Shown piece after piece: positions 3,985-27,239 of a stretch of DNA of 33,068 bases. A program made the position numbers and the translations under genes. Source of the DNA: Methanocellales archaeon (GTDB lineage: Archaea > Halobacteriota > UBA148); assembly GCA_030019435.1 (NCBI GenBank), contig JASEEV010000020.1, positions 1-33,068 of the forward strand, read 5' to 3'. The stretch's first letter is position 1; the number at the start of each line of letters is the position of its first letter. The notes below the pieces were generated by a model. The model was given only the letters and a program-made list of their open reading frames with translations, was not told where the DNA came from and did no database searches.

Positions 3985-5430
3985 TCAACCCTTCACCACG
4001 CCCATTGGTATCAGCTTGGCAACGGTCTTACTTATGCCAGCGACCTCGCAAACCCTGACAACTTCATGGATGTCTTTATACACGCCAGGCGCCTCTTCCG
4101 CCAGCACCTTCCAAGATGCAGATCGTACGAATATGTCCTTGCTCGCTAGGTTTGCCTTTACCCGCTCGCCCCTGAATTGTTTCAGCGCACTATGTCTCGA
4201 CATGAGGCGCCCTGCGCCATGGCAGACCGAGCTAAAAGTTTCTTCTTCAGCCATTTTTGTTCCTACTAATACATAGCTTGCGGACCCCATATCGCCTGGC
4301 ACGAGCACTGGTTGACCTACGCTGCGGTAATCCTTTGGGATGTCCATAGAGCCAGGACCGAAGCATCTCGTCCCCCCTTTTCTGTGCACATACGCTTTTA
4401 TTTTCTCACCGTCTATGACGTGCTCCTCTAGCTTGCCGATGTTATGTGCCACATCATAGACGACCTCTATACCAATGTCCTCTTGACTCATGCCGAGGAT
4501 CTTGGTCATGCTCTCTCTCACCCAGTGGTTTATCATCTGCCTGTTACACCATGCGAAGTTCGCTGCGCAGCTCATCGCCGCAAAATAATCCTCACATTCC
4601 TTCGTTCCAGCAGGAGCATACACTAGTTCACGATCAGGTAGCTTTGCCACCTCTTCTCTAAACTTCATCTCCAATATCCGCAGATAATCCGTGCACACTT
4701 GGTGTCCGAAGCCTCTGGAGCCGGTGTGAATCATCACACAAATTTGATCCTCATGTGAGATGCCAAAAGTCCTTGCAATATCCGGCTGGTAGATTTTATC
4801 CACCCTTTGGATCTCCAGAAAATGATTTCCTGCTCCTAGGGAACCAAGCTGTGGTGCGCCCCTTTGCATAGCCTTGGATGATATTTTCTCTGAGTTAGCT
4901 GATTTCATACAACCTTTTTCTTCCAAATGCTCTATGTCTTTCTCAGTCCCATAGCCATGTTCGACTGCCCATCTAGCCCCCATCTCCAGCACTTCGCAAA
5001 TCTCTCGCGTCGACAATCTGATCTTTCCTCCCTTGCCGACGCCGGAGGGCACGTTATGGAATATCTCCACCACCAACGACTCCAGCACTGGTCTTATGTC
5101 GCCAGACCTCAGATTCGTTCTTAGCAGGCGGACACCGCAGTTGATGTCAAAACCAATTCCGCCTGGAGAAAGTCCACCGCTTTGGGCATCCAAGGCGGCG
5201 ACGCCTCCTATGGGAAAACCATAGCCGAAATGCATGTCCGGCAGTGCAATAGAATGCTTGTGGATTCCTGGCAGGCAGGCAACATTTGCAGCCTGCTCTA
5301 CCGCCCCCTCTTCTACCTGCGTTAACAATTTGTCTGATAAGAAAATCCATGCCGGTGCATTCATCCCCTTAACGGTGCCTTGGGGCAGTTCCCACAGGCA
5401 ATCGCCAAGCTTTTTCAATTTCTCTTTCAA
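3985..5430 (-). CDS. rtcB: RtcB RNA-splicing ligase
   Basis: A 481-residue GTP-dependent ligase that joins 2',3'-cyclic phosphate and 5'-OH RNA ends, the step that seals tRNA exons after archaeal intron excision. Length and residues match the well-studied archaeal enzyme: D95 and C98 (GFDINCGV) and H203 (GAGNHF), a further metal histidine in MIHTGSRG, H329 (DVAHNIG), and the guanylated histidine H404 in CHGAGR. No intein is present. The start is TTG; the region MKEKLKKLGDCLWELPQG aligns with the family N-terminus, so I keep it. Divergently transcribed from nrdD. A sealed tRNA-Leu in this window would be a natural substrate. Confidence 0.96.
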   Translation of the reverse strand: MKEKLKKLGDCLWELPQGTVKGMNAPAWIFLSDKLLTQVEEGAVEQAANVACLPGIHKHSIALPDMHFGYGFPIGGVAALDAQSGGLSPGGIGFDINCGVRLLRTNLRSGDIRPVLESLVVEIFHNVPSGVGKGGKIRLSTREICEVLEMGARWAVEHGYGTEKDIEHLEEKGCMKSANSEKISSKAMQRGAPQLGSLGAGNHFLEIQRVDKIYQPDIARTFGISHEDQICVMIHTGSRGFGHQVCTDYLRILEMKFREEVAKLPDRELVYAPAGTKECEDYFAAMSCAANFAWCNRQMINHWVRESMTKILGMSQEDIGIEVVYDVAHNIGKLEEHVIDGEKIKAYVHRKGGTRCFGPGSMDIPKDYRSVGQPVLVPGDMGSASYVLVGTKMAEEETFSSVCHGAGRLMSRHSALKQFRGERVKANLASKDIFVRSASWKVLAEEAPGVYKDIHEVVRVCEVAGISKTVAKLIPMGVVKG

Positions 5431-7341: not shown

Positions 7342-8151
7342 ATGCAGTGCGATCTAGCAATACTGATACCATCATCTCTGACATCTGAGAGCAAGGATCA
7401 ACGAATCAAGACCTACAAGGTGGGACAGATAGCAAGGGCGGCATCGATATTCAGGGTGGACAAGATCATCATCTACAAAGACCCAGAGTACGATGACAGC
7501 AAGTTCATCGACCTAGTGCTTAGGTATGCGGAAACACCACAGTATATGCGGAAGCAATTGTTTCCGTTGAGCGATGAGCTAAGATATGTGGGTGTCATCC
7601 CACCGCTGCGAACCCCACATCATCCATTGACCACTCCAAAAATGGGAGAATTTCGAGAGGGCGTCGTAATCAAGTCTGGCGAGAACGCTTGGGTCGATAT
7701 TGGGACCAAAAGCCCAGTCCCCTTACGCACGGATAAAATCGTGCGGAGAGGAGAGCGTGTAACCGTCAGGATCTTTTCGCGAAGGCCATTGCGGGTTGAA
7801 CTTGTAAGCAAGGAACAAATTCCGCTGTATTGGGGATATCAAACCCGTGTCTCAGGGACACTGGGCGAGACGCTGAAAGCACAGTCCACGGTGATTGCGA
7901 CGTCCAAACGTGGCGAAGTCGTGGGCGTGAAAATGCTATCCCAGCTGAGAGAGGCGATGCAGGGTGAAGTCTCAATTGCGTTCGGCTCCCCAAATCGTGG
8001 GCTCGATGCCATCCTAGAAGATGAGGGCCTGGCGCTCTCCAACCTCTCAGACTACATCATCAACACGATCCCTGACCAAGGGACCGCTACGGTCAGAACA
8101 GAAGAGGCAATATTCTCAACTCTGGCAATGCTGAATATAATCAGGAGGTAA
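7342..8151 (+). CDS. SPOUT-superfamily RNA methyltransferase-like protein
   Basis: A 269-residue protein of the archaeal SPOUT family (COG2106-like), often found directly before uL3. The N-terminal half starts the Rossmann-like part (CDLAILIPSSLT, VDKIIIYKD). The middle (~residues 95-165) resembles an OB/S1-like RNA-binding insert (EGVVIKSGENAWVDIGTKS). The C-terminal part has the trefoil-knot cofactor-binding loops VSIAFGSPNRGL and INTIPDQGTATVRTEEA. Relatives in eukaryotes are predicted rRNA uridine methyltransferases, so action on rRNA during ribosome assembly is likely but inferred. Its TAA is two bases from the uL3 ATG, with AGGAGGT just before. Confidence 0.85.
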   Translation: MQCDLAILIPSSLTSESKDQRIKTYKVGQIARAASIFRVDKIIIYKDPEYDDSKFIDLVLRYAETPQYMRKQLFPLSDELRYVGVIPPLRTPHHPLTTPKMGEFREGVVIKSGENAWVDIGTKSPVPLRTDKIVRRGERVTVRIFSRRPLRVELVSKEQIPLYWGYQTRVSGTLGETLKAQSTVIATSKRGEVVGVKMLSQLREAMQGEVSIAFGSPNRGLDAILEDEGLALSNLSDYIINTIPDQGTATVRTEEAIFSTLAMLNIIRR

Positions 8152-25192: not shown

Positions 25193-25216
25193 GCGGGGGT
25201 TGCCAAGTCTGGTCAA

Positions 25217-25457
25217 ACAACCTTTCTTCGCGAAGGGTTTCGCCCCACGGAAATCGAGGATTTCCTGGGCCCAGAAACCTAAAGGTTTCTGTCCTGCTCC
25301 ATTTTGAAGGAAATGCGAGCTGTTCCATTCCCCGAAGGGAATGCGAACACTCACATTTCTCCGAAATGTGAGCACCCACAGATCTTTGATCTGTGGTTTT
25401 TTGAAACCCAAAGGAAGAGGGTCAAGGGAGAAACTACGTTTCTCCTTGATGGGCTAG
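25217..25457 (+). ncRNA. Hairpin-chain intron in tRNA-Leu
   Basis: The insert is nearly all consecutive stem-loops: 25219-25239 (8 bp), 25249-25265 (7 bp, extendable to 25242-25270), 25272-25291 (9 bp), 25296-25320, 25326-25343 (7 bp, CGAA loop), 25350-25372 (10 bp), 25376-25396 (9 bp), and 25422-25449 (12 bp with one bulged base). Most are perfect inverted repeats with 2-5-base loops. There is no credible reading frame. It should be excised by the archaeal splicing endonuclease and sealed by RtcB. Whether the freed RNA has its own role is unknown. Confidence 0.7.
25300..25378 (+). repeat. Three tandem copies of a ~26-base hairpin unit
   Basis: Within the tRNA-Leu insert, units begin at 25300, 25326 and 25354, each starting CATTY and later reading GAA...AATGYGARC. 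Sequences differ, but changes on one arm are matched on the other (CATTT/AAATG, CATTCCC/GGGAATG, CACATTTC/GAAATGTG). That pattern suggests duplication followed by structure-preserving change. Confidence 0.55.
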
Positions 25458-25519
25458 AGGCGCAAGGTTGAGGGCCTTGTCTCGTAGGAGTTCGCGAGTT
25501 CAAATCTCGTCCCCCGCAT

Positions 25520-27005: not shown

Positions 27006-27239
27006 TTGGATCAGAAGTATACGAAGTATGAACGAGCTAGAATAATTGGCACTCGCGCGTTGCAAATATCCATGGGGGCACCAGTCCTGGTGAAAACGGA
27101 AAGAACCGATCCGATCGACATTGCGACACTCGAAATGGAGAAAGGCGTGATCCCGATCACAGTAAAACGAAGGGGCTTGAATGGCGAAGCGGATGCTTCA
27201 CATCCTAAATTCGCCCCTTTGGAAAGGAAGAGAGTATGA
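27006..27239 (+). CDS. rpoK: RNA polymerase subunit K
   Basis: The archaeal omega/Rpb6-like subunit (77 residues) that clamps the polymerase assembly. [40 protein letters not shown] and [11 protein letters not shown] are diagnostic; a short C-terminal tail ([19 protein letters not shown]) extends past the core. No in-frame ATG or GTG exists upstream of the conserved region. TTG 27006 lies five bases after AAGGTG (26995-27000) and is taken as start. Overlaps eno by ATGA. Confidence 0.93.

Follow-up and report, generated by a model that had tools for sequence, protein, structure and literature searches.

What is a chain of hairpins 241 nt long doing in the D-loop of a tRNA gene, and can such a gene still give rise to a tRNA? 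The question is raised by tRNA-Leu(GAG), which lies at positions 25193-25518, between rpoD and rpl18e, in the 33,068-nt stretch of DNA analysed here (the window). The source genome (G000) is a draft MAG, 94% complete, in 87 contigs, which are labelled below by C-numbers. A preliminary description, made from the sequence of the window, took the locus for a complete class II tRNA-Leu(GAG) with an interrupted D-loop, and the sequence does read so: once position 25216 is joined to 25458, the result is a class II tRNA-Leu of 85 nt with the anticodon GAG and an intact anticodon arm. ARAGORN calls the spliced form, as it calls tRNA-Leu in all 27 D-loop-interrupted genes of the order when they are spliced. 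The unspliced gene is missed both by ARAGORN and by the Rfam tRNA model, as had been foreseen for gene finders. The tRNA sets of the order may be annotated as incomplete, since these programs miss or mislabel such genes. The preliminary description had also named a second intact tRNA-Leu(GAG) gene, together with a lack of spliced reads, as a finding that would speak against it; a search of the 94% complete source genome turned up no further Leu(GAG) gene. Coordinates of all features are given in Table 1.

Table 1. Features of the tRNA-Leu(GAG) locus and of related elements. Positions are those of the window unless a contig is named; C1 is the contig of genome G005.
Feature	Position	Strand	Remarks
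5′ exon, tRNA-Leu(GAG)	25193..25216	+	24 nt, ends in D-loop (...GGTCAA); from sequence and ARAGORN on the spliced form
D-loop intron	25217..25457	+	241 nt; supported by the BHB junctions and by 26 further D-loop introns compared within the order
3′ exon, tRNA-Leu(GAG)	25458..25518	+	61 nt; anticodon arm, long variable arm, T arm, acceptor
BHB central helix, 5′ strand	25211..25214	+	GGUC, exon; bulge AAA 25215-25217, predicted cut after 25216
BHB central helix, 3′ strand	25452..25455	+	GGCU, intron; bulge AGA 25456-25458, predicted cut after 25457
5′ intron part common to tRNA-Leu(CAA)	25217..25245	+	93% identical
Palindromic core of hairpin modules, read as mobile	25231..25409	+	96% identical over 180 nt to a stretch inserted behind a ferredoxin gene (C22:76130-76308)
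Module pair, GGAAATC/GATTTCC and CAGAAACC/GGTTTCTG hairpins	25231..25294	+	alone in Lys(UUU), Met, Gly, Gln and Leu(CAA) introns and at the CBS-gene site
Nested module group	25293..25410	+	also in Lys(CUU), Arg(UCG) and Thr(UGU) introns and beside TFB
3′ tail with hairpin (TCAAGGGAGAAACTACGTTTCTCCTTGA)	25410..25457	+	read as the tail of the ancestral Leu intron; Leu(CAG) and Leu(TAA) have it with 98% identity
RtcB-type RNA ligase gene	3985..5430	-	presumed exon joiner; RtcB-related models match, below their curated cut-offs
Hairpin element at rpoK 3′ end	27168..27232		52 nt match the TFB-site element in reverse orientation (92% identity)
Element in 23S rRNA variable region	C65, about 40290-40361		70 nt; site empty in sister genome G001 (match covers it)
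G005 tRNA-Gly(UCC) with 37/38 intron	C1:398653		366 nt
G005 tRNA-His(GUG) with 37/38 intron	C1:617692		310 nt
G005 tRNA-Arg(UCU) with 37/38 intron	C1:769422		303 nt

The exon-intron junctions have the form of a bulge-helix-bulge (BHB). Bulges of 3 nt, AA|A and AG|A, flank a 4-bp central helix, GGUC/GGCU, and with the anticodon arm intact the insert is a D-loop intron and not one at the usual 37/38 position; in both respects the first reading stands. Between the D-stem and the central helix lie six unpaired exon bases (AAGUCU/AAGUCA), so that the strict hBHBh′ structure is not formed. The motif is of the relaxed kind because AAGUCU separates the two helices. A strict outer helix is unnecessary for membership in the wider archaeal family of BHB tRNA introns. 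The inner helix is weak in those introns that bear the tail hairpin.

The enzymes that would act on this motif are encoded in the genome. The window itself carries an RtcB gene, as the preliminary description had noted, and the EndA of the source genome is a 352-aa open reading frame with two tandem domains, i.e. of the alpha′2 type. The same two-domain type is present in every genome of the order examined; compared with two outgroups, the order's EndA has no extra loop. According to one review, efficient removal of introns with relaxed motifs is confined to the (alpha beta)2 and epsilon2 enzymes (PMC6379350), and the Archaeoglobus alpha′2 EndA is said to act on canonical BHB substrates only (PMC12397907). 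Either the alpha′2 EndA of this order has a wider range than thought, or the tRNA context helps. From the sequence we infer that the Leu(GAG) intron is spliced. The rule that relaxed D-arm introns require an (alpha beta)2 or epsilon2 EndA is challenged, and with its combination of alpha′2 EndA and relaxed D-loop motif the order offers a good test case.

The D-loop site is not peculiar to one gene. All five Leu isoacceptors of the source genome have an intron there, with lengths of 241 (GAG), 83 (CAG), 143 (TAG), 83 (TAA) and 196 nt (CAA), and Ser(UGA) has two introns, one of 46 nt in the D-loop and one of 228 nt at 37/38. In nine relatives within the order Leu(GAG) stands in the same rpoD-rpl18e context and is interrupted at the same site, by 31-216 nt; the comparison of the locus in relatives, which had been proposed as a check, thus finds it interrupted and not intact. 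D-loop introns in ten genomes of the order range from 28 to 241 nt, and those of Leu(GAG) in the sister genomes measure 79-88 nt only. A full 4-bp central helix is present in 25 of the 27 D-loop introns collected. Its intron strand varies (GGCU, GGUC, GACU, GAUU, GAUC, GACC) and its exon strand hardly does. The exon strand is too constant for a permutation test, and support for the D-loop set therefore comes from pairing that is kept despite the variable intron strand. A few Leu genes within the order are uninterrupted, and the Leu matches in 20 outgroup genomes of the phylum are all uninterrupted. Since the same site is used throughout the order and the outgroups lack an interruption, the distribution shows that the D-loop intron site was gained at the base of the order.

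The length of the insert was rightly considered exceptional, as reviewed archaeal tRNA introns measure 11-129 nt, with about 8% of euryarchaeal tRNA genes having one (PMC4090602). Its fold is also unusual. The minimum free energy (MFE) of the 326-nt sequence is -156.3 kcal/mol (z = -8.9 against dinucleotide shuffles), and 0 of 100 shuffles were as stable. In the MFE structure the insert shows nested stems and about five or six terminal hairpins, fewer than the approximately eight stable ones first proposed. For known structured RNAs, group I and II introns among them, Rfam gives only sub-threshold matches to microRNA models, which are expected for any long hairpin; a self-splicing element or known non-coding RNA in the insert was rejected as having no Rfam support.

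In one respect the insert is not exceptional, and here the preliminary description needs correction: it is not a one-off. A search of the source genome with the insert gives more than 30 significant matches, and palindromic repeats recur at about 26 further sites, namely about 14 tRNA introns, four tRNA spacers and eight places elsewhere (own count). An all-vs-all alignment of 31 introns and insertion sites of the genome yields 135 linked pairs; 20 shuffled sets yield 0. Sense-strand matches to other loci cover 100% of the Leu(GAG) intron, which, as judged from them, is a mosaic of palindromic modules that are shared with those loci (Table 1). Variants of the tail hairpin retain pairing of their stems through two-sided changes at several pairs. 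All modules in the tRNA introns inspected follow the tRNA sense, and elements are found inserted within one another. One instance is the Lys(CUU) intron, where the two halves of a module hairpin are separated by an insert with a repeat of GATCT on each side of it. Uniform terminal repeats or target duplications of the modules were not seen on an unsystematic inspection, and no parent transposon matching the hairpin modules was identified.

Long introns with hairpin chains are found in about ten tRNAs of the source genome. Those bearing the modules include Lys(CUU) with 235 nt, Arg(UCG) with 199, Gln(UUG) with 172, Gly(UCC) with 161, Lys(UUU) with 153, initiator Met with 123, Thr(UGU) with 117 and Asn with 95 nt. 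The 24 tRNA introns measured add up to about 2.6 kb, or 0.18% of the genome, and about 23 of the 42 complete tRNA genes located (own count; the 42 leave out Phe, Ile and Ala-GGC, which were not located in the source genome) are interrupted. Near-identity over the whole intron is limited to the pair Leu(CAG)/Leu(TAA); otherwise the interior modules are common property and the ends are specific to each tRNA. The ends were analysed in 32 introns at the 37/38 position, taken from the source genome and from its relative G005 and picked without use of the central helix. In them, 122 of 128 positions of the intron ends are paired with the anticodon loop of the same gene; after permutation of the introns the count averages 93 and never exceeds 106, and sliding controls give 60-78. 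Because these ends pair with their own anticodon loops, the 37/38 introns are taken as genuine, and the hairpin modules sit inside working BHB frames.

Copies are also present outside tRNA genes. They are found in a variable region of 23S rRNA, behind ferredoxin (fdx), beside TFB, at the end of a CBS-domain gene, and within a DUF504-like gene and an ABC-ATPase gene, the reading frame staying open through both of the latter; gene names at these sites were assigned by reading the translations. Among the four genomes of the sister genus none has an element at the fdx or TFB site; in the same genus the DUF504, ABC and CBS sites contain shorter or degenerate sequence. The element at the end of rpoK is read in frame as a C-terminal extension, where relatives in the order stop four to five codons past PITV, and the end of the CBS gene is likewise extended in frame. 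A pre-mRNA intron at the DUF504 insertion was considered and found to be unneeded, as the frame stays open and the sisters have an in-frame linker there.

A second family of the same order has comparable introns. Its member G005, a complete chromosome in a single contig, has a 216-nt D-loop intron in Leu(GAG), pieces of which recur at many sites, mostly in tRNA introns. In addition to the three 37/38 introns of Table 1, G005 has two more, of 290 and 227 nt. Only 8 short module matches link G005 and the source genome, vs 63 matches within G005 and 183 within the source genome, and as judged from these the hairpin family of G005 is largely separate. Since long hairpin introns are seen in two families, including the single-contig G005, they are not an artefact of assembly.

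The reading favoured here, to which a probability of roughly 0.87 is given, is that tRNA-Leu(GAG) is functional and carries an ancestral D-loop BHB intron, cut by EndA and its exons ligated by RtcB, with a terminal loop that was colonised by mobile hairpin repeats. The gene would be transcribed as a pre-tRNA; the alpha′2 EndA, whose gene is present as is that of RtcB, would cut both bulges, and RtcB would join the exons. The repeats would have landed in the apical loop of an ancestral intron of about 80 nt, where they would be tolerated because splicing removes them and the BHB fold remains intact. Nested insertion, together with recombination or gene conversion between introns, may have carried the palindromic family through this lineage, and the same repeats have also inserted into other transcribed places. 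The tRNA-sense orientation of the modules, together with their nesting, fits recombination or gene conversion between introns with occasional insertion. A more far-reaching proposal is that a selfish hairpin element of a new kind has tRNA introns as its main habitat, has spread independently in two families while hidden by splicing, and has brought introns to 200-370 nt, and that D-loop Leu introns became fixed in the order while its alpha′2 EndA was retained, which would imply that alpha′2 enzymes process relaxed motifs in vivo. The chances of this seem about even.

Other explanations of the insert have to be weighed against colonisation of a spliced intron. The relaxed D-loop motif combined with an alpha′2 EndA could be taken to mean that the insert is never removed, the gene being either a pseudogene or a tRNA with a giant D arm. 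This is scarcely credible for the sole Leu(GAG) gene found, whose exons are conserved through the order in one gene context and whose central helix is of the kind that is complete in 25 of the 27 D-loop introns. A misjoin between repeat copies, which would have placed the chain in a Leu gene with a true intron of about 80 nt, is suggested by source-genome contigs that end in hairpin repeats or hold runs of N within them, and by the near-duplicate segment, 98% identical, that C11 and C18 have in common. It is nevertheless highly improbable, as Leu(TAG) and Leu(CAA) independently bear D-loop introns of 143 and 196 nt with the same modules, and the single-contig G005 has a 216-nt D-loop intron and 37/38 introns of up to 366 nt.

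The very stable fold, and tail-hairpin stems that stay paired through two-sided changes, could reflect a functional RNA under selection, comparable with the box C/D RNA in archaeal tRNA-Trp introns. Sister Leu introns do without the chain, its content varies between introns and between families, and no Rfam family fits, all of which makes such a role quite unlikely. Somewhat more can be said for a Y1 transposase (IS200/RAYT-like) that mobilises the hairpins, as with bacterial REP elements, in place of recombination between introns. There are three Y1 transposase matches in the source genome, on C75 and C14, and the elements do insert into each other, as the split Lys(CUU) hairpin with its flanking GATCT indicates. 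G005, which has the longest introns, has zero Y1 matches, and against this mechanism stand also the lack of uniform terminal repeats or target duplications on unsystematic inspection and the exclusive tRNA sense of the modules in the tRNA introns inspected. Such a transposase is an unlikely agent, and as a general mover it was rejected, being present in the source genome but absent from G005.

Set beside known systems, the Leu(GAG) intron belongs with the BHB tRNA introns, from which it differs in having grown through mobile palindromic repeats. Noncanonical intron positions have been reported above all from Crenarchaeota and Nanoarchaeota (PMC4090602). The noncanonical archaeal BHB introns at 20/21, 22/23 and 25/26 (PMC4090602; PMC8450103) have similar D-arm junctions with an intact anticodon arm, and genes with multiple introns occur among them too, as in Ser(UGA) here. 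They are mainly from Crenarchaeota, Nanoarchaeota and Thaumarchaeota, whereas the present ones belong to an order of Halobacteriota, measure 28-241 nt and coexist with an alpha′2 EndA. Intron transposition in Thermoproteales (Fujishima et al. 2010, as cited in PMC4033280) likewise involves similar introns across the tRNAs of one genome. Unlike those transposed introns, the introns here have tRNA-specific ends, common nested hairpin modules in the interior, and copies outside tRNAs; near-identity of whole introns between different tRNAs, as used for the Thermoproteales type, is not the rule in the source genome, being seen only between Leu(CAG) and Leu(TAA).

Rickettsia palindromic elements (RPE; PMC10969869) are also short palindromic repeats with copies in frame within or at the end of open reading frames, and the elements described here behave in the same way: the DUF504-like and ABC frames stay open, and the rpoK and CBS ends are extended. 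The likeness is one of behaviour and not of membership. Unlike RPE, the present repeats have tRNA introns as their main habitat, an archaeal host and modular nesting, with no conserved peptide demonstrated. With the prokaryotic MITE/REP-type repeats (PMC10969869) they have in common that they are non-coding, hairpin-forming and multicopy, with some sites empty in relatives, but uniform terminal inverted repeats or target duplications were not seen and no parent transposon was identified. Disruption of a tRNA gene by a mobile element in Caldiarchaeum (PMC3293823) is similar in that mobile DNA and recombination reshape introns and scatter tRNA fragments; there the insertion is 1.9 kb with an open reading frame, and here small hairpin repeats contain no gene. 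In the open-licence literature nothing matching an account of long archaeal tRNA introns, or of palindromic repeats inside them, was found.

The introns described here exceed the reviewed size range for archaeal tRNA introns two to three times. They show growth by accretion of mobile hairpins, and as the sister genomes provide near-empty controls, gain and growth can be traced stepwise.

Some further observations concern the assembly. Hairpin repeats appear to break the assembly of the source genome, and at C87:23800-25200 and C44:55100-57600 runs of N at hairpin repeats are flanked by duplicated sequence; these are probably scaffolding artefacts. Despite the replication in G005, individual mosaics of the source genome could be imperfect. 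Orphan 3′ halves of tRNA-Asn and tRNA-Arg(CCU) are present at C11:125300-127800, and the matching 5′ half of tRNA-Arg(CCU) stands where C26 ends; over 284 nt the orphan-half segment has 98.2% identity with C18 (6300-7800). These halves looked like split tRNA-Arg(CCU)/Asn genes, but C18 carries a complete Asn gene and is nearly duplicated by the C11 segment, which makes duplication or an assembly switch likelier. The orphan halves may reflect either intron-intron recombination that makes tRNA half-genes or an assembly switch at repeats. Elsewhere in the window, positions 7676-7769 match the Rfam L4-Archaeoglobi family, a ribosomal protein leader, with 50.7 bits.
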